This document shows positions 2,263 to 17,327 of a DNA stretch of 34,837 nt, one piece after another. The notes under the pieces are model-generated. The model had not been told where the DNA came from. It made no database searches and was given only the letters and a program-made list of their open reading frames with translations. The DNA is from a virus, in IMG/VR virus record IMGVR_UViG_3300037502_000301, positions 1 to 34,837 of that record; one strand, 5' to 3'. Position numbers and translations under genes: made by a program. Position 1 is the stretch's first letter. Each line of letters begins with the position of its first letter.

Positions 2263-3251
2263 AATAACCTCTGCGTCCAGGTTTTAGGGGTTAGGGGTGA
2301 CACTATTTCAATCGGCAAGTGGTATTTGAAGGGGCGGGGGCCACGGTTCCTGATGTAGGTGATGATCTTCCCTAGGGACTCGTCCAGAGGTACGCTCTGC
2401 TCCCATTTAAACCAGTCTCTGATCTTGTCTGCGGAACAGTTGGCGTGCTTTACCTCTTGGGGGCGACCAGGCATATAAGTCGGGTTCAGGTCAAAGTCTA
2501 GGAGTTTGGCGATTCTCTGTGCCAACTCTAAAATCGCTACCTCACCCTTGTCTGGCCCGATGTTAAAGGTATGGCCAGCACAGTCCTCAAAACCTAACAT
2601 CATCAAGATGTCTATATCTTCGTCTACGTCTGAGAAGCATCGAATCTGGGATCCGTCACCGTAGATGATTGGCTGGCGACCCTGAAGCATAAGGTTGGTC
2701 ATGATCGAGGCTACATTTCGGAACGGGTCGTCATACTTCTGTTTGGCCCCAATAATGTTGTGCGGCACGGCGATCACCAGCTCTATCCCATGAACCTCTG
2801 CAAGGTTCTTTAGAAGCATCTCTGCGGCCACTTTAGCGATGCCGTAGGGGTCTTGTGGCTTACATTCCATGTCCTCGGTAAACGGAGGCTTCTGCGCCCC
2901 ATAACGAGCCATAGACGAGCAATGAACGACTCTCTTAACGCCGCAGCGTATAGCTGCTGTCATTACATTGACGGATATTTGGGTGGTGTTCTGGGTGATG
3001 AGTGAGGGAGAGAAGACAGATAGTCCTTCGTAGGCAGTGCAGGCCGTGTGGTAGACCAGATCCACCCCGTCCATGACATCGGTGAGTTTATCGAGGTTCG
3101 ATAAGTCAAACCTGTGGAGGTCTACATGATGCGGGACGTTTAAAGGGTCCCCACCGATCATGTTATCAACACCTATAACCTGGTGTCCTTTTAGCCGATC
3201 ACACAGATGCGAACCTAAAAAGCCAGCGGCTCCGGTTACTAGAATTTTCAT
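2259..3251 (-). CDS. NAD-dependent epimerase/dehydratase (extended SDR)
   Basis: The Rossmann motif GAAGFLG (7-13) follows the first strand (KILVT). A Ser pair (CSSMARYG, 111-118) and the catalytic YGIAK (136-140) complete the extended-SDR active site. The protein resembles UDP-glucose 4-epimerase or dTDP-glucose dehydratase-type enzymes. I start it at ATG 3251, which overlaps the previous stop as ATGA, rather than at the TTG 18 bases upstream. The length (330 aa) is normal. It probably makes or interconverts a nucleotide sugar for the adjacent glycosyltransferase. The product could modify host surface glycans or phage DNA; the sequence does not tell which. Confidence 0.88.
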   Translation of the reverse strand: MKILVTGAAGFLGSHLCDRLKGHQVIGVDNMIGGDPLNVPHHVDLHRFDLSNLDKLTDVMDGVDLVYHTACTAYEGLSVFSPSLITQNTTQISVNVMTAAIRCGVKRVVHCSSMARYGAQKPPFTEDMECKPQDPYGIAKVAAEMLLKNLAEVHGIELVIAVPHNIIGAKQKYDDPFRNVASIMTNLMLQGRQPIIYGDGSQIRCFSDVDEDIDILMMLGFEDCAGHTFNIGPDKGEVAILELAQRIAKLLDFDLNPTYMPGRPQEVKHANCSADKIRDWFKWEQSVPLDESLGKIITYIRNRGPRPFKYHLPIEIVSPLTPKTWTQRLF

Positions 3252-3691
3252 AGATTGACCAATCTCCAAAGGCGTAGCGGAACCGCAAAGAACCGCTCAC
3301 CGCTCTCTACATACTTGTTTGGATTCTCAACTACAGGGCTTTGTAGAATTGTATCACCACGACACCAGAGGGCTTGTGTTAAGTCCTGCTTTACAGAGAA
3401 AAGTAAGGTTGGCAGGTTATAAGTAAAGAACTTCTGCTTCCGGTAAGGAACGTGGACTGTCTGGTAAGGAAAATCGCTTACCCAGTTATGTCGTCGTTCA
3501 ACCTCTGCGTAACCGACTTCTCTGCCGTTCTCTAGGATGATGACATCCACGTCGTACTTCCCGCCCTCCTCGACTTGCTTACCCCACCTGGTAGAGATGT
3601 AGTTCATAACGGCATCTTTAGCAGGGCCGTCATTCTCCTCGTGTAGCTGGGCATCAAAAGGTTTTTTCGAGTATCCGCTTGATGGTCTCAT
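3248..3691 (-). CDS. Hypothetical protein, possible PD-(D/E)XK-type fold
   Basis: The 147-residue protein has a short segment, YDVDVIILENGREVGYAEVE (about 45-64), that matches the D-strand-turn-E-x-E pattern of restriction-endonuclease-like folds, with the usual Lys replaced by Glu. The rest includes aromatic-rich strands (VPYRKQKFFTYNL) and a C-terminal FFAVPLRLWRLV. No firm family assignment is possible. It overlaps the Ref-like gene by 38 bp at its start and the SDR by 4 bp at its end. Confidence 0.5.
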   Translation of the reverse strand: MRPSSGYSKKPFDAQLHEENDGPAKDAVMNYISTRWGKQVEEGGKYDVDVIILENGREVGYAEVERRHNWVSDFPYQTVHVPYRKQKFFTYNLPTLLFSVKQDLTQALWCRGDTILQSPVVENPNKYVESGERFFAVPLRLWRLVNL

Positions 3692-3920
3692 TTAGAGCGT
3701 CCAGTTCGTCCATCTTCTTCAACTTCCACATATTCCGCTGCCCATGCCAGCCGTTCTTAGATCCGGTATGGCAGTCCTTACAAAGAGGGATACAGATGTA
3801 CTGTCGGTGTTGTTTGACATGGTGTGCATCACTTGGGCCTTCTGCGTCACACACCACACACCGCATCTCTTTGATAAGCCCAAGGTAGGCTTTCTCTTTG
3901 GCGTTTAACTTGTTAAGCAT
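3654..3920 (-). CDS. Ref/HNH-type zinc-binding nuclease
   Basis: The 88-residue protein has two Cys pairs framing a His pair: C21-x2-C24, H33-H34, then C47-x2-C50-H51 (CIPLCKDCHTG), followed by NGWHGQ. This is the treble-clef HNH arrangement of the P1 Ref-like recombination-enhancement nucleases and related NinG/DUF968-type proteins common beside ninB. It probably cuts DNA during recombination. Its ATG overlaps the end of ninB by 8 bp. Confidence 0.75.
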   Translation of the reverse strand: MLNKLNAKEKAYLGLIKEMRCVVCDAEGPSDAHHVKQHRQYICIPLCKDCHTGSKNGWHGQRNMWKLKKMDELDALNETIKRILEKTF

Positions 3921-4239
3921 TGGTTGAGATCCAGGCGAATACTTCTTGAAGATAGTCTGAGAACTCTTGCTTGCTGAGTTTCGTAGTAGATGGCCATACC
4001 ATGATGACTTCCCCGTGGATCTCTAGGATGTCTGGCTTCAGGTATTGGCGTTTAAACCATTCGTGCCATACGGGTGCGGTCTGGTTAGTCTTCTCAGCAA
4101 GGATCTGGAGTTCCTTCCAGTAAAGCGCATTCTGGTCGGCAGTTCTGTTAGGCGGCTTGATCTCTACAGAATGGCCGTCAGGAGCCTGTGCGACCATCTG
4201 TAGGACTGTCTGGCGGTTGCCGTCAAGGATGAACTTCAT
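3913..4239 (-). CDS. ninB: NinB-family recombination protein
   Basis: The sequence matches the NinB/Orf pattern: an N-terminal strand (KFILDG), basic early half, the hallmark RTADQNALYWKELQILAE segment, then the VWHEWFKRQYLKP block and a C-terminal FSDYLQEVFAWI helix. Lambda NinB (Orf) binds single-stranded DNA and helps load recombinases. I start it at ATG 4239, which overlaps the methyltransferase TGA (ATGA) and has GGGAG 5 bases upstream; an ATG at 4251 would add 4 residues. Length 108 aa. Confidence 0.88.
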   Translation of the reverse strand: MKFILDGNRQTVLQMVAQAPDGHSVEIKPPNRTADQNALYWKELQILAEKTNQTAPVWHEWFKRQYLKPDILEIHGEVIMVWPSTTKLSKQEFSDYLQEVFAWISTNA

Positions 4240-5116
4240 AGGCTCTCCCATGCTGTTCTAGCCACTTCTGGAACTTGTCCGTTTCCAATGGCTTTAAGTC
4301 TGTCCACCCTAGCGGCCACCCCATCAGCCACTCGACCCAAGTCGGGTTCAATTTCCCACCAGCTTGTGTACTCAGAGCTGTCCCGCCTTGAGCGTATTTT
4401 TCTTTCCGATGGCTCGTGTCGTCCGCTACTGGTGTCGGCCACAGTCTCCTGCCAACTATTGTTTCTAGGTTTGGAAACCTCTTTTCGTTCCACGCAGATT
4501 CTGGCGTTATTGTCGCCGCCATCGCAGAACAACTTCTTGGGGTCGGCCAATTTACTTGAGCTGTTAAAGTTGGAGTATTCCTTTTGTGTTCGCTCGGAGC
4601 ATTTGTTTCTTTTGCCATGTGAGCAGTTGGCGTTGGCCAAAATCCAGATTCTGTCTCTTTGGTGAGGTGCGCCGACATCTGCTGCTCCCAGCACTCCCCA
4701 TCTCGCATCAAACCCCATCGAGGCCAAGTCTCCGAGTACGGTTCCAAGCCCCCTAGAAGTGAGCATTGGTGAGTTCTCCACAAAGACGAATCTGGGTCGT
4801 ACTTCGTGAATGATCCGTGCCATTTCTCGCCACATTCCTGAACGCTCTCCGTCAATTCCTGCGCCCTTTCCTGCTGCTGAGATGTCCTGGCATGGAAACC
4901 CGCCAGATACGACATCAACAATTCCTCGCCACGGTCTTCCGTCAAAGGTTTGAACATCATCCCAAATCGGGAAAGGCGGGAGAACTCCGTCATTCTGTCT
5001 GGCGGCAAGTACGCAAGCTGCGTATGGTTCCCACTCGACTGCACAGACTGTTCTCCATCCGACGAGATGTCCCCCAAGTATTCCTCCACCAGCACCTGCG
5101 AATAGAGCCAACTCAT
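4223..5116 (-). CDS. WPTP-motif protein overprinted on the methyltransferase gene
   Basis: This 297-codon frame lies entirely across the Dcm gene on the same strand. It begins with ATG directly after the TGA of the upstream gene (TGAATG, same frame) and ends 13 bp beyond the Dcm stop. It contains SFTKYDPDSSLWRT, FSETWPRWG-like SETWPRWGLMRDGECW, three WPTP motifs, and a Trp-rich tail (LNPTWVEWLMGWPLGW, then TDLKPLETDKF). From memory, phage proteins with just these WPTP repeats and this tail are common, often listed as hypothetical or methyltransferase-related; I could not check this. Across the three WPTP copies the base changes are silent here and non-silent in the Dcm frame. Function unknown; I infer it is a real protein, possibly a companion of the methyltransferase. 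Confidence 0.6.
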   Translation of the reverse strand: MSWLYSQVLVEEYLGDISSDGEQSVQSSGNHTQLAYLPPDRMTEFSRLSRFGMMFKPLTEDRGEELLMSYLAGFHARTSQQQERAQELTESVQECGEKWHGSFTKYDPDSSLWRTHQCSLLGGLEPYSETWPRWGLMRDGECWEQQMSAHLTKETESGFWPTPTAHMAKETNAPSEHKRNTPTLTAQVNWPTPRSCSAMAATITPESAWNEKRFPNLETIVGRRLWPTPVADDTSHRKEKYAQGGTALSTQAGGKLNPTWVEWLMGWPLGWTDLKPLETDKFQKWLEQHGRAYEVHP

Positions 5117-5120
5117 TCAT
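4236..5120 (-). CDS. DNA (cytosine-5) methyltransferase
   Basis: All main C5-methyltransferase motifs are present in the 294 residues: motif I ALFAGAGGG (5-13, SAM binding), motif IV GGFPCQDIS (73-81, catalytic Cys77), motif VI ENS (115-117), motif VIII QRDRIWI (154-160) and the motif X-like GNGQVP near 279-284. It transfers a methyl group from S-adenosylmethionine to C5 of cytosine, probably to shield phage DNA from restriction. The region between motifs VIII and IX (about 161-250), where target recognition sits, is short and polar and overlaps the WPTP part of the other frame. ATG 5120 overlaps the upstream TGA as ATGA. Confidence 0.92.
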   Translation of the reverse strand: MNELALFAGAGGGILGGHLVGWRTVCAVEWEPYAACVLAARQNDGVLPPFPIWDDVQTFDGRPWRGIVDVVSGGFPCQDISAAGKGAGIDGERSGMWREMARIIHEVRPRFVFVENSPMLTSRGLGTVLGDLASMGFDARWGVLGAADVGAPHQRDRIWILANANCSHGKRNKCSERTQKEYSNFNSSSKLADPKKLFCDGGDNNARICVERKEVSKPRNNSWQETVADTSSGRHEPSERKIRSRRDSSEYTSWWEIEPDLGRVADGVAARVDRLKAIGNGQVPEVARTAWESL

Positions 5121-5512
5121 GCGGCCCTCATTGTTCTACGCATGACTTCTGCCTTAAAATTGGGCCAGCTATCGAACTCTGACGGGCGCAGTCCGAGTTG
5201 GAGTCCTTTACTCTCAATTCCTGTAGCGGTCTCCCACCAGTTGACTACCTTGCCTTGGACTTGAACTACATCTTCTCCGAGGTCTACACCCCAGTCATCA
5301 TCCCATCTCTCAGCTCGTAACCAAGTGGCCGCATGGGGAATAAAGATCCCGCCATCTTTTCTCCACTGGTCTTGTTGCTTGGCTAGTTCTAGTGCTTTGA
5401 TGATCTTCTCGACTGGCGGTCTTATCTTCTCTGTCTGGCTCCAGGCTTTTCTTGCTTCGCCCTTGGCTACTTTTCTTGGGTATGCCTTCCAGAACTTCTC
5501 AAAGTCTTCCAT
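5117..5512 (-). CDS. Replication-organiser-type protein (131 aa)
   Basis: The first 70 residues follow a pattern seen at the C-terminal end of phage replication initiators: FEKFWKAYPRKVAKGEARKAW, then DGGIFIPHAATWLRAERWDD. Here it stands at the N-terminus of a short protein with an extra C-terminal part. The start has AAGGAG 7 bases upstream. It is the first gene after the long non-coding stretch that has an origin-like appearance, which fits a replication role. Its frame continues, past a single TGA, into the WPTP frame. I infer involvement in replication initiation or helicase loading. Confidence 0.6.
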   Translation of the reverse strand: MEDFEKFWKAYPRKVAKGEARKAWSQTEKIRPPVEKIIKALELAKQQDQWRKDGGIFIPHAATWLRAERWDDDWGVDLGEDVVQVQGKVVNWWETATGIESKGLQLGLRPSEFDSWPNFKAEVMRRTMRAA

Positions 5513-11454: not shown

Positions 11455-11781
11455 ATGGAAACCAACAAAATACAGGAAAATATTGCCGCCGGACTTCCTC
11501 CCGCTGCTGGGATGGGTAGACCTAAAGGCGTTCCTAACAAGTCAACTGCTATCGTAAGAGAGGCTATTGCAAACCTGCTAGAGCGCAACTCTGAGCAGAT
11601 GGATGGCTGGCTTCAGCGGGTTGCCGAGGGTGATCCTGTAAACGGGATTAAACCAGCACCAGACAAGGCTCTGGACATCATGCAGAAGCTCTGCGAGTAC
11701 CACATCCCTAAACTGGCTAGAACTGAAGTAACTGGTAAAGACGAAGGCCCAGTACAGATTGCAGTCGGATGGCAGAAGTAA
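11455..11781 (+). CDS. Terminase small subunit candidate
   Basis: 108 residues with GMGRPKGVPNKSTAIVREAIANLLE near the N-terminus, a WLQRVAEGDP segment and a C-terminal LCEYHIPKLARTEVTGK. The basic GRPKGxPNK start followed by helices is common in proteins that directly precede large terminase genes. Small terminases bind the packaging site and regulate the motor. The assignment rests on position and this pattern. Overlaps terL by 13 bp. Confidence 0.6.
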   Translation: METNKIQENIAAGLPPAAGMGRPKGVPNKSTAIVREAIANLLERNSEQMDGWLQRVAEGDPVNGIKPAPDKALDIMQKLCEYHIPKLARTEVTGKDEGPVQIAVGWQK

Positions 11782-13037
11782 AGCAAGTCACTATTCCGTA
11801 CAGACCTCGTGAACAACAACTTATCTTGCATGAGAAGGTTGATGCTCACAGATTCAGCGTTGCGGTCTGCCATCGAAGATTCGGCAAGACTGTTGCAGCC
11901 ATCAACCAGCTTATTAAGGCTGCGATGGAGTGCGACAAGGAGTCCCCAAGGCTGGCTTACATCGCCCCAACCTACACCCAGGCCAAGCGAGTAGCATGGG
12001 ACTACTTACTCAAGTACACAGCACCACTAGAAGCAAGACCAAACATCACGGAGTTGCGGGTAGATTTCTGGGACAGAAGGATCTCTCTCTACGGAGCAGA
12101 CAATCCAGATTCTCTCCGAGGGATTTACCTAGACTTTGTAGTCCTCGACGAAGTTGGGGACATGAACCCAAAGATTTGGAATGAGATCATCCGACCTGCG
12201 CTGGCTGACAGACAAGGCAAAGCTCTCTTTATCGGAACGCCTAAGGGTGCGAACCATTTTAAGGATCTACGGGACAGGGCAGAGGCTGAAGAGGGCTGGA
12301 CGCTGCTGGAGTTCAAGGCATCGCAGACTGGGATCGTGGCTGAAGAAGAACTTAAAGCGGCCAAGAAAGAGATGGGCGACGACAAGTATGCCCAAGAGTT
12401 TGAGTGCAGTTTCCATGCAGCGGTCGAAGGTTCGTACTACGGGCAGATCCTCAATAAGGTCGAGGAAGACGGCCATGTATGCGAGATACAGAGAGATGAT
12501 CTCTGCAAGACATTTACGGCGTGGGATCTGGGAATGGGAGACTCCACGGCGATATGGGTGGCGCAGGTTGTGGGACAGGAAATCCGGCTCATGGATTACA
12601 TTGAGAACCACGGGCAAGGGCTTGACTGGTATGTTCGGGAACTCACGAATAGGGACTGGCATAAAGCCTCGCACCTCCTTCCTCACGATGTTGAAGTACG
12701 GGAGCTTGGTACGGGGAAGTCCAGACTTGAGGTTCTACGGAGTGCCGGTCTTGACTGTACGGTTCTACCTCGCTTGTCCGTGGATGACGGCATCCAGGCG
12801 GCGAGACGCATACTACCGAGATGTTGGTTCAACGTACCTGCGGTGAAACAAGGCTTAGACTGTCTGAGGAACTACAGGCGAGAATATGACGAGAAGCGAA
12901 GCGTATTTTATGACCGGCCTCTGCATGATTGGTCTTCTCATGGCTCAGACGCTTTTCGCTACTTGGCTGTTGGCATCGACACGACTGACTCTGGCTGGAA
13001 CAAGCCTCTACCAATTAAAACCAACTGGATTGTATAA
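11769..13037 (+). CDS. terL: Terminase large subunit
   Basis: The DNA-packaging motor. The ATPase half has a variant Walker A, CHRRFGKT (34-41), and a Walker B, VVLDE (124-128), followed by the coupling segment IGTPKG (155-160). The RNase H-like nuclease half has TAWDLGMGDSTAIW with Asp253, and a late HDWSSHGSDAFRY motif with the third acidic residue. At 422 residues it is compact but complete. It cuts concatemers and drives DNA into the prohead formed by the portal next door. Confidence 0.95.
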   Translation: MAEVKQVTIPYRPREQQLILHEKVDAHRFSVAVCHRRFGKTVAAINQLIKAAMECDKESPRLAYIAPTYTQAKRVAWDYLLKYTAPLEARPNITELRVDFWDRRISLYGADNPDSLRGIYLDFVVLDEVGDMNPKIWNEIIRPALADRQGKALFIGTPKGANHFKDLRDRAEAEEGWTLLEFKASQTGIVAEEELKAAKKEMGDDKYAQEFECSFHAAVEGSYYGQILNKVEEDGHVCEIQRDDLCKTFTAWDLGMGDSTAIWVAQVVGQEIRLMDYIENHGQGLDWYVRELTNRDWHKASHLLPHDVEVRELGTGKSRLEVLRSAGLDCTVLPRLSVDDGIQAARRILPRCWFNVPAVKQGLDCLRNYRREYDEKRSVFYDRPLHDWSSHGSDAFRYLAVGIDTTDSGWNKPLPIKTNWIV

Positions 13038-15396: not shown

Positions 15397-16359
15397 ATGG
15401 ACACCAACCCTAGTGGGAGTGCCAAAACCGTAGGTGAAGCAGCCAACGCCTTTCTAGGCTTGATGGGTGGTGAAGAGGAGGCGCAAGCCCAACCAGAAGC
15501 ACCAGCCGAAGAGATCATTGACGAGGTTGTTGAGCAGACCGAAATCCAAGAGGAACTGGACGAGGAAACCGAAGAGTACGAAGAGGAGCCTGAAGAGGAG
15601 CCGACCCCCACCTACCGAGTAAAGGTAGGCAAGGAGGAAGTCGACGTTCCGCTAGATGAGCTGCTCAAAGGGTATTCACGGACTGCTGACTACACCAAGA
15701 AGACCCAGGAACTGGCCGAAAACCGCAAGGCTGTAGAAGCGGAGAGGGCTAAGATCCAAGAGGCTTCACGACTCCGAGACCAGTATGCCGAGCGGTTGTC
15801 TGTCATTGAGCAGATGCTTAACCAGACCGAAAAGGCAGAAGATTTGTCCGTTCTGAAGGAAACCGACCCTATCGGCTATGCCGTGAAGGTTGCAGAACAG
15901 GCAGAACGAGAGAAACAACTGGCCGCCGTCCGTGCAGAACGACAGCGATTGGCCCAGCAGCAGCAGTCTGAGCAGAGCGAGAGGCTACAAGCCCACCTTG
16001 CAAGCGAGGCAGCAAAGTTGCGTGATGCCATCCCTGAGATGTCTGACGAGATCAAAGGCGAGACAGTAAAGCGAGAAATTCGTGATTTCGCCAAATCTAT
16101 TGGCTTTTCAGATCAAGAACTCGCTGCGGTGTACGACTCTCGTGCAGTCTTGACACTTTACAAGGCTATGCAGTACGACAAGCTGATGAAGGGCAAATCT
16201 GAGGCAACCAAGAAGGTTGTCCAGGCTCCGAAGATGCTTAAACCAGGGACTTCCACGCCAGAAGCGATGGAGACCGAACAAGTTAAGAAGATGCGTCAGC
16301 AACTCCGCAAGTCGGGGAACAAGAACGACGCAGCTCGTCTATTTGAACGCTTTTTATAA
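15397..16359 (+). CDS. Scaffolding protein candidate
   Basis: Three parts: a very acidic N-terminal third (many Glu, residues about 25-68), then YRVKVGKEEVDVPLDELLKGYSRTADYT (a short strand-turn motif often present in phage scaffolds), then a long Glu/Gln/Arg-rich coiled coil. The C-terminus is basic (KKMRQQLRKSGNK), as scaffolds have for capsid contact. Position directly before the capsid gene supports this. Length 320 aa. Confidence 0.8.
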   Translation: MDTNPSGSAKTVGEAANAFLGLMGGEEEAQAQPEAPAEEIIDEVVEQTEIQEELDEETEEYEEEPEEEPTPTYRVKVGKEEVDVPLDELLKGYSRTADYTKKTQELAENRKAVEAERAKIQEASRLRDQYAERLSVIEQMLNQTEKAEDLSVLKETDPIGYAVKVAEQAEREKQLAAVRAERQRLAQQQQSEQSERLQAHLASEAAKLRDAIPEMSDEIKGETVKREIRDFAKSIGFSDQELAAVYDSRAVLTLYKAMQYDKLMKGKSEATKKVVQAPKMLKPGTSTPEAMETEQVKKMRQQLRKSGNKNDAARLFERFL

Positions 16360-16370
16360 AAGGAATCGAA

Positions 16371-17327
16371 ATGCCTACATATACCGCTTTTACCGCCACG
16401 GGCCTCCGTGAAGACCTCCAGGACGTCATTTATGACATCTCCCCCCAAGACACGCCCGTCATGTCGTCCATCGGCAAGACCAAGGCTGCTGCTGTTAACC
16501 ACGAGTGGCTGAAGGATTCTCTGGCCGCTGCTACCACGGCTAACGCCGCTGTTGAAGGTGACGACGCTGTTGCCGCTACCCTGTCGCCCACGACTCGTGT
16601 TGGCAACTACACCCAGATCGTTTCCAAGACCGTTCAGGTTTCGGGTACTCTGGAAGCCGTCAACAAGGCTGGCCGTAAGTCTGAGAAGGCTTACCAGTTG
16701 GCTAAAGCCTCTGCTGAGATCAAGCGTGACATCGAGACCATCATCACGGCTAACCAAGCCAAGAACGCTGGTAACTTGTCTACCGCTCGTAAGATGGGTT
16801 CGCTCCTGTCCTACATCACCACGAACACCAACAAAGGCTCTGGCACTACTACTGCCGGTACTGATCCTACTGGTGACGGCTCCAACGTCCGTGGTGACGC
16901 TGACACGACCCGTACCTTTACTGAGACCATCCTCAAGGATGTCATTCAGCAAGTGTTTACGGAAGGTGGCACGCCCTCGCTGTTGGTCGTTCCTCCCGCT
17001 CTGAAGCAGACTGTTTCCGGCTTTACCGGCATCAGCCAGCATCGCATCAATTCTCAGGCTTCCGGCCAGATCACCATCCTCGGTGGTGCTGACCTGTACC
17101 AGTCTGACTTTGGTGTGGTTCAGATTGTCCCGAACCGCTTCATGCGTACTCGTGACGCTCTGGTTCTGGATCCTGAGTACGCTGCTCTGGCTTACCTGCG
17201 TCCCTTCCAGACCAATGATCTGGCTAAGACCGGTGACTCTGAGAAGACCCAGATCCTGGCCGAGCTGACCCTTGAGGTTCGCAACGAAGCCGCTCATGGC
17301 GGTGCTTTCGACCTGAAGCCTGCTTGA
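16371..17327 (+). CDS. Major capsid protein, SU10/DUF5309-like
   Basis: 318 residues. The start, FTATGLREDLQDVIYDISPQDTPVMS, then KAAAVNHEWLKDSLAAA, is characteristic of the SU10-type (DUF5309) major capsid proteins of the HK97 fold. A VGNYTQIVSKTVQVSGT segment follows. The codon use here is more strongly biased than in the flanking genes, as expected for the most abundant protein. A clear intrinsic terminator follows 22 bases after the stop. Confidence 0.88.
   Translation: MPTYTAFTATGLREDLQDVIYDISPQDTPVMSSIGKTKAAAVNHEWLKDSLAAATTANAAVEGDDAVAATLSPTTRVGNYTQIVSKTVQVSGTLEAVNKAGRKSEKAYQLAKASAEIKRDIETIITANQAKNAGNLSTARKMGSLLSYITTNTNKGSGTTTAGTDPTGDGSNVRGDADTTRTFTETILKDVIQQVFTEGGTPSLLVVPPALKQTVSGFTGISQHRINSQASGQITILGGADLYQSDFGVVQIVPNRFMRTRDALVLDPEYAALAYLRPFQTNDLAKTGDSEKTQILAELTLEVRNEAAHGGAFDLKPA

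Follow-up and report, generated by a model that had tools for sequence, protein, structure and literature searches.

We identified two same-strand reading frames, overlapping by 881 nt, in the window (the whole 34,837-base IMG/VR virus record analysed here). Together they very probably encode a two-polypeptide C5-cytosine DNA methyltransferase of the M.EcoHK31I kind, specified by fully overlapping genes. The first frame, alpha, would supply the catalytic and cofactor-binding motifs I–VIII and the motif X helix, while the second frame, beta, would supply motif IX and the target-recognition region with its PTP repeats. Both would be translated full length, in frames 0 and +1, and the two chains would assemble into the active enzyme, with which the phage most likely modifies its own DNA against host restriction. 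The first-pass annotation of this DNA had described a full-length methyltransferase and a 297-codon second frame over the same stretch, and both were found at the positions listed in Table 1.

Table 1. Features of the alpha/beta locus and its flanking genes
Feature	Position	Strand	Basis or remark
alpha, C5-cytosine methyltransferase frame, 294 aa	4236..5120	-	ORF list, Pfam, PHROG, Foldseek
beta, second (+1) frame, 297 aa	4223..5116	-	ORF list, PHROG 1008, open-frame count, selection test
Predicted recognition region of beta, three WPTP motifs (4628-4639, 4538-4549, 4430-4441)	4355..4651	-	Codon check; homologous PTP repeats at the same place in single-chain enzymes
Predicted motif IX of beta, KLNPTWVEWLMGWPLGWT, residues 255-272	4301..4354	-	hhalign to single-chain C5-methyltransferases; beta-type substitution pattern
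Twin start ATGAATG	5114..5120	-	alpha ATG 5120-5118, beta ATG 5116-5114
Shine-Dalgarno-like GAGGG	5125..5129	-	4 nt 5' of the alpha start, 8 nt 5' of the beta start
Upstream gene, replication-initiation-like, translationally abutting both starts	5117..5512	-	PHROG 9474, E=1.2e-19
NinB-like gene downstream of alpha and beta, sharing DNA with the 3' end of each	3913..4251	-	PHROG 72, E=3.9e-20

The two start codons are fused in the sequence ATGAATG, within which the TGA at 5119-5117 is the stop codon of the upstream gene. This arrangement was conserved: of the 102 loci in which both frames were open, 92 have the start of beta at alpha +4, and in every one of these 92 it is ATG. At these loci the alpha start was ATG, GTG or TTG at the usual spot in 82 cases, and the remaining 10 had an alternative alpha start 3 to 9 codons upstream. 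TGA or TAA stood immediately 5' of the beta ATG in 90 of the 92, although, where alpha starts at the usual spot, its NTGA makes the TGA automatic. The commonest distance from the Shine-Dalgarno sequence to the beta start was 8 nt, hence 4 nt to the alpha start (91 loci). Dual initiation at closely spaced start codons, leading to two overlapping frames, has been documented in E. coli (PMC9841429). In the favoured model, a single ribosome-binding site at ATGAATG would serve both starts, and initiation would probably be linked to the end of translation of the upstream gene. A cognate restriction enzyme beside alpha and beta is unlikely, the adjacent genes being replication-initiation-like and NinB-like; the ORF at 3654-3920 lay outside the scan, and the nearby ORF at 3248-3691 gave no PHROG match. 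Elsewhere in the window, an antisense 333-aa ORF at 16296-17297(-), which has no PHROG family and is probably due to chance, lies over the major head protein gene at 16371-17327(+) (PHROG 1328), and the terminase large subunit gene at 11769-13037 contains, in its +1 frame, a 221-aa ORF at 12181-12846(+) that belongs to no family.

To estimate the number of stops expected in the beta frame, synonymous alpha codons were shuffled within each gene, using 77 loci picked by alpha similarity only. One stop was observed against 409 expected, and beta was fully open in 76 of the 77 loci. The control was decisive: in single-chain homologues, which have no need of a second frame, the stops in the same frame over the catalytic core numbered 69, where 73 were expected, and not one of the 21 was open.

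Selection on each frame was then examined by codon position. Because beta is shifted by +1 relative to alpha, each third position of a beta codon is the first of an alpha codon. The register agrees with the earlier statement that the differences among the three WPTP motifs fall at beta third and alpha first positions; the codon strings, their coordinates and their alpha readings (LANAN, LADPK and VADTS) were likewise exact. In rates from 44 close pairs, alpha third positions were the fastest in most of codons 1–165, alpha first positions (the beta wobble) changed fastest in codons 166–270, and alpha third positions were again the fastest from codon 271 onward, the codon pattern of residues 271–290 (motif X) being driven by alpha. 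Within the variable region, alpha position 1 changed at 0.37–0.43 per site, against 0.17–0.28 at the other two positions. The dominant frame therefore alternates from alpha (motifs I–VIII) to beta (the variable region and the LNPxWVEWLMGWP motif) and back to alpha (motif X).

The alpha wobble rate was 0.17, compared with 0.41 in neighbouring genes, but this difference is confounded by the exchange of methyltransferase genes between phages, and we therefore preferred a four-class test in which substitutions are sorted by their effect in both frames and neighbouring genes serve as the control. As descriptive ratios (pairwise counts with a transition weight of 2, outside any overlapping-gene likelihood model; a weight of 4 gave the same picture), the constraint on beta given alpha-synonymous change (SN/SS) was 0.29 in the core against 0.77 in the controls, and that given alpha-nonsynonymous change (NN/NS) was 0.44 in the variable region and 0.12 in motif IX against 0.96 in the controls. 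The constraint on alpha given beta-synonymous change (NS/SS) was 0.08 in the core and 1.29 in the variable region, against 0.29 in the controls, indicating no net amino-acid constraint on alpha residues 166–252. These ratios identify alpha as a passenger in the variable region and beta as selected in both the core and its C-terminal half. Selection on the second frame, as originally claimed, is thus supported, the N-terminal half included.

Alpha matched Pfam PF00145 (DNA_methylase) with E=1.4e-34 and PHROG 363 with E=4e-73. It carries motifs I–VIII in residues 1–165, a weakly constrained linker at 166–255 and motif X (RLKAIGNGQVP) at 274–284, and its GNGQVP tail is almost invariant. Motifs I, IV (PCQ), VI (EN) and VIII, together with the catalytic-domain fold, identify alpha as a C5-cytosine DNA methyltransferase, as does its alignment to M.HhaI. 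The structural model resembled M.HhaI over the catalytic domain (Foldseek, 8e-10), with very low confidence over residues 168–282 (pLDDT<50). Against the profile of single-chain enzymes, alpha residues 5–169 aligned to positions 5–188 (P=8e-37), and the match stopped after motif VIII. Neither a recognition domain nor motif IX was detected on the alpha chain by constraint, predicted disorder or the end of the profile match. The near-free evolution and predicted disorder of the variable region suggest that alpha has no recognition domain of its own.

Beta matched PHROG 1008, labelled 'DNA methyltransferase', with E=1.7e-33, and the same family was matched by single-chain and split enzymes. No Pfam or NCBIfam family was found for beta; DUF3598_N, Nop25 and VisN were rejected, with scores far under the cut-off. 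Profile comparison by hhalign aligned beta residues 256–273 (LNPTWVEWLMGWPLGWT) to positions 386–403 of the single-chain profile (P=1e-8), with 95.7% probability and 50% identity. The motif IX of M.HhaI, RKLTPRECARVMGYPDSY, has the pattern L-x-P...M-G-aromatic-P in common with that of beta. No match emerged when the sequence of beta was compared directly with those of solved methyltransferases, so its homology depends on the single-chain intermediates. By the profile comparison and the single-chain matches given below, the C-terminal half of beta is homologous to the target-recognition and motif IX region of single-chain C5-methyltransferases. This homology and the shared PHROG 1008 make it most likely that the overlapping enzyme has beta as its second subunit. 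The AlphaFold2 model of beta alone was poor (mean pLDDT 55) and matched nothing in the PDB, and it speaks neither for nor against the subunit reading. The N-terminal half (about residues 1–155), which is overprinted on the alpha catalytic core, gave no homologue outside the overlapping loci and has no single-chain counterpart.

The intermediates that connect the two frames are single-chain C5-methyltransferases of actinobacteriophages, exemplified by gp69 of Mycobacterium phage Ramsey (447 aa), with 23 similar loci. In chains of the Ramsey type, several PTP repeats separate motif VIII from motif IX, which reads RLAAAFPEWMMGWPAGW and is followed by IIGNGVCPQQA (motif X). Ramsey gp69 matched the window twice, through residues 24–182 in the alpha frame (E=4e-29) and through residues 268–410 in the beta frame (E=2e-6), and this division of matches between the two frames recurred in several other phage loci. 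The single-chain enzyme of Propionibacterium phage PFR1 aligned to positions 20–312 of the 324 positions of Pfam DNA_methylase, an alignment that connects the beta-type tail with the C-terminus of ordinary C5-methyltransferases. In split relatives (EmyBug gp82/gp81, Morrow, Upyo and Eesa), alpha ends just past motif VIII; the PTP repeats and motifs IX and X are found on another ORF, which is again in the +1 frame. Gordonia phage Geodirt has a split-like locus (L169, 762-1295 and 1102-1968) where the beta-like gp4 alone is annotated, as a DNA methyltransferase, and the alpha frame, upstream of gp4 and overlapping it, is unannotated. At loci L170 and L256-L285, the PTP modules that lie between motifs VIII and IX vary widely in number and sequence among near relatives, a pattern resembling the shuffling of recognition modules.

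The closest known system is M.EcoHK31I, whose smaller polypeptide is reportedly encoded in a different frame inside the gene for the larger one. Phage alpha, in the role of the larger M.EcoHK31I-type subunit, bears motifs I–VIII and X, and by sequence homology motif IX would likewise be on the second polypeptide. In M.EcoHK31I (YGGCCR; Lee, Kam and Shaw 1995, as described in PMC3404938), the larger subunit carries motifs I–VIII and X and the predicted recognition domain, and motif IX alone is on the smaller one. In contrast, the target-recognition region of the phage enzyme appears to lie in beta, where it is selected in the beta frame, and not on alpha; beta spans practically all of alpha and starts 4 nt after it; and the system is borne by phages and prophages in many bacterial lineages, with no restriction enzyme recognized beside the locus in the window. 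Relative to M.EcoHK31I, the recognition region too would thus lie on beta, with near-total overlap and fused starts. As in M.AquI and EmyBug gp82/gp81, motifs I–VIII are on one chain and the predicted recognition region and motif IX on another, and the second ORF of the split phages is likewise in the +1 frame; however, motif X of M.AquI and EmyBug is on the second chain and their overlap is short or absent, whereas the locus in the window has motif X on alpha and an almost complete overlap. Ramsey gp69 and PFR1 are homologous to alpha in motifs I–VIII and to beta in the PTP and motif IX region, but they consist of one frame and one chain, with a +1 frame full of stops. An out-of-frame second protein, the hidden HNH endonuclease with the ShiLan domain, is found inside a phage DNA methylase gene (PMC11855218). 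Unlike that inserted homing endonuclease, the second frame described here would be the enzyme's own other half.

The overlap is old, widespread and usually half-missed by gene annotation. Searches with beta detected at least 600 places in viral contigs, as well as 92 phage records, 3 plasmids and 160 places in bacterial and archaeal genomes, and a search with the locus DNA matched 4 E. coli genomes. A comparison of 113 distinct loci found 102 with both frames open. Across 80 genome loci, drawn from many phyla, the +1 register of the second frame held without exception, both frames were open in nearly all, and no beta without an overlapping alpha was found. Edwardsiella phage eiAU-183 gp16 has 28% identity to alpha, and its +1 frame keeps WPTP and LNP...WLMGLP. 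The first-pass annotation had stated, correctly in view of the viral contig and the bacterial and archaeal genome searches, that both tails recur in many phages. Its further suggestion of an old, widespread dual-coding system with an unknown protein holds for age and spread, on the open-frame counts above, and is not supported for the protein, given the single-chain homology and PHROG 1008. No published description of the phage alpha/beta overlap family was found in the literature searched, an absence that is not in itself proof.

Individual records illustrate how the locus is annotated. RefSeq gives alpha alone in the E. coli PT62 prophage (L288, 1500-2237) and in a Leptospira plasmid (L289, 2997-3812), with beta open from an ATG at alpha +4 in both. 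In the eiAU-183 locus (L290, 1285-2277), gp16 conceals an unannotated and very divergent beta with WPTP motifs and LNPAHSRWLMGLP. Beta start positions vary between lineages; in Paenibacillus phage Diva (L004, 1420-2124), beta is annotated as 'g49 internal gene', with a start about 60 codons into alpha. Paenibacillus larvae phages have annotations for both frames.

Three other explanations were weighed. The second frame could be a mere shadow of the conserved methyltransferase frame, giving no protein. Conserved alpha codons automatically yield some similarity in the +1 frame, as the shadow in Ramsey illustrates, and the lack of a Pfam or NCBIfam family for beta would agree with such an origin. 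However, a shadow should show alpha-type codon evolution throughout, while the pattern inverts over codons 166–270; true single-chain shadows contain stops in chance numbers, unlike the beta frame; and the beta start remains ATG where the alpha start is GTG, TTG or moved. We regard this explanation as extremely improbable overall, and the stop counts with the single-chain control and the inverted codon-position pattern rule it out in the variable and motif IX regions.

Programmed ribosomal frameshifting could instead produce one chain that begins as alpha, with motifs I–VIII, and ends as beta, with the recognition region and motif IX, an idea that suits the order of motifs from alpha to beta and the existence of single-chain relatives. 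It is very unlikely, since motif X is back in the alpha frame, which would require a second shift, and since beta is open, selected and provided with a conserved ATG far 5' of any plausible shift site. The selected N-terminal half of beta, with no homologue found outside the overlapping loci, and the low-confidence model would also be consistent with a beta that acts on its own, for instance in antirestriction or regulation, and has re-used a methyltransferase-derived C-terminus. This too is very improbable: alpha is little constrained where a recognition domain is expected, beta has exactly the missing parts, and beta never occurred without an overlapping alpha among the 80 genome loci. We thus favour the two-polypeptide enzyme. 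A broader interpretation, in which an ancient and large phage family encodes two obligate subunits in one DNA stretch with twin starts and alternating selection, the N-terminal half of beta being an overprinted domain with a function of its own, is plausible, but we put it forward tentatively and with slightly more doubt than confidence.

Under the two-polypeptide reading, PHROG 1008, a conserved phage family, would be the half that is missing from methyltransferases now recorded as complete single chains. Because alpha is annotated as the complete enzyme, the recognition region that would set specificity has been overlooked in many records. The single-chain, split and fully overlapping enzymes form a natural series for studying how overlapping genes arise and persist. 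Dual initiation and frame-alternating selection are also unusually clear at this locus, which could serve as a model for both, and the examples in E. coli prophages should be easily testable.
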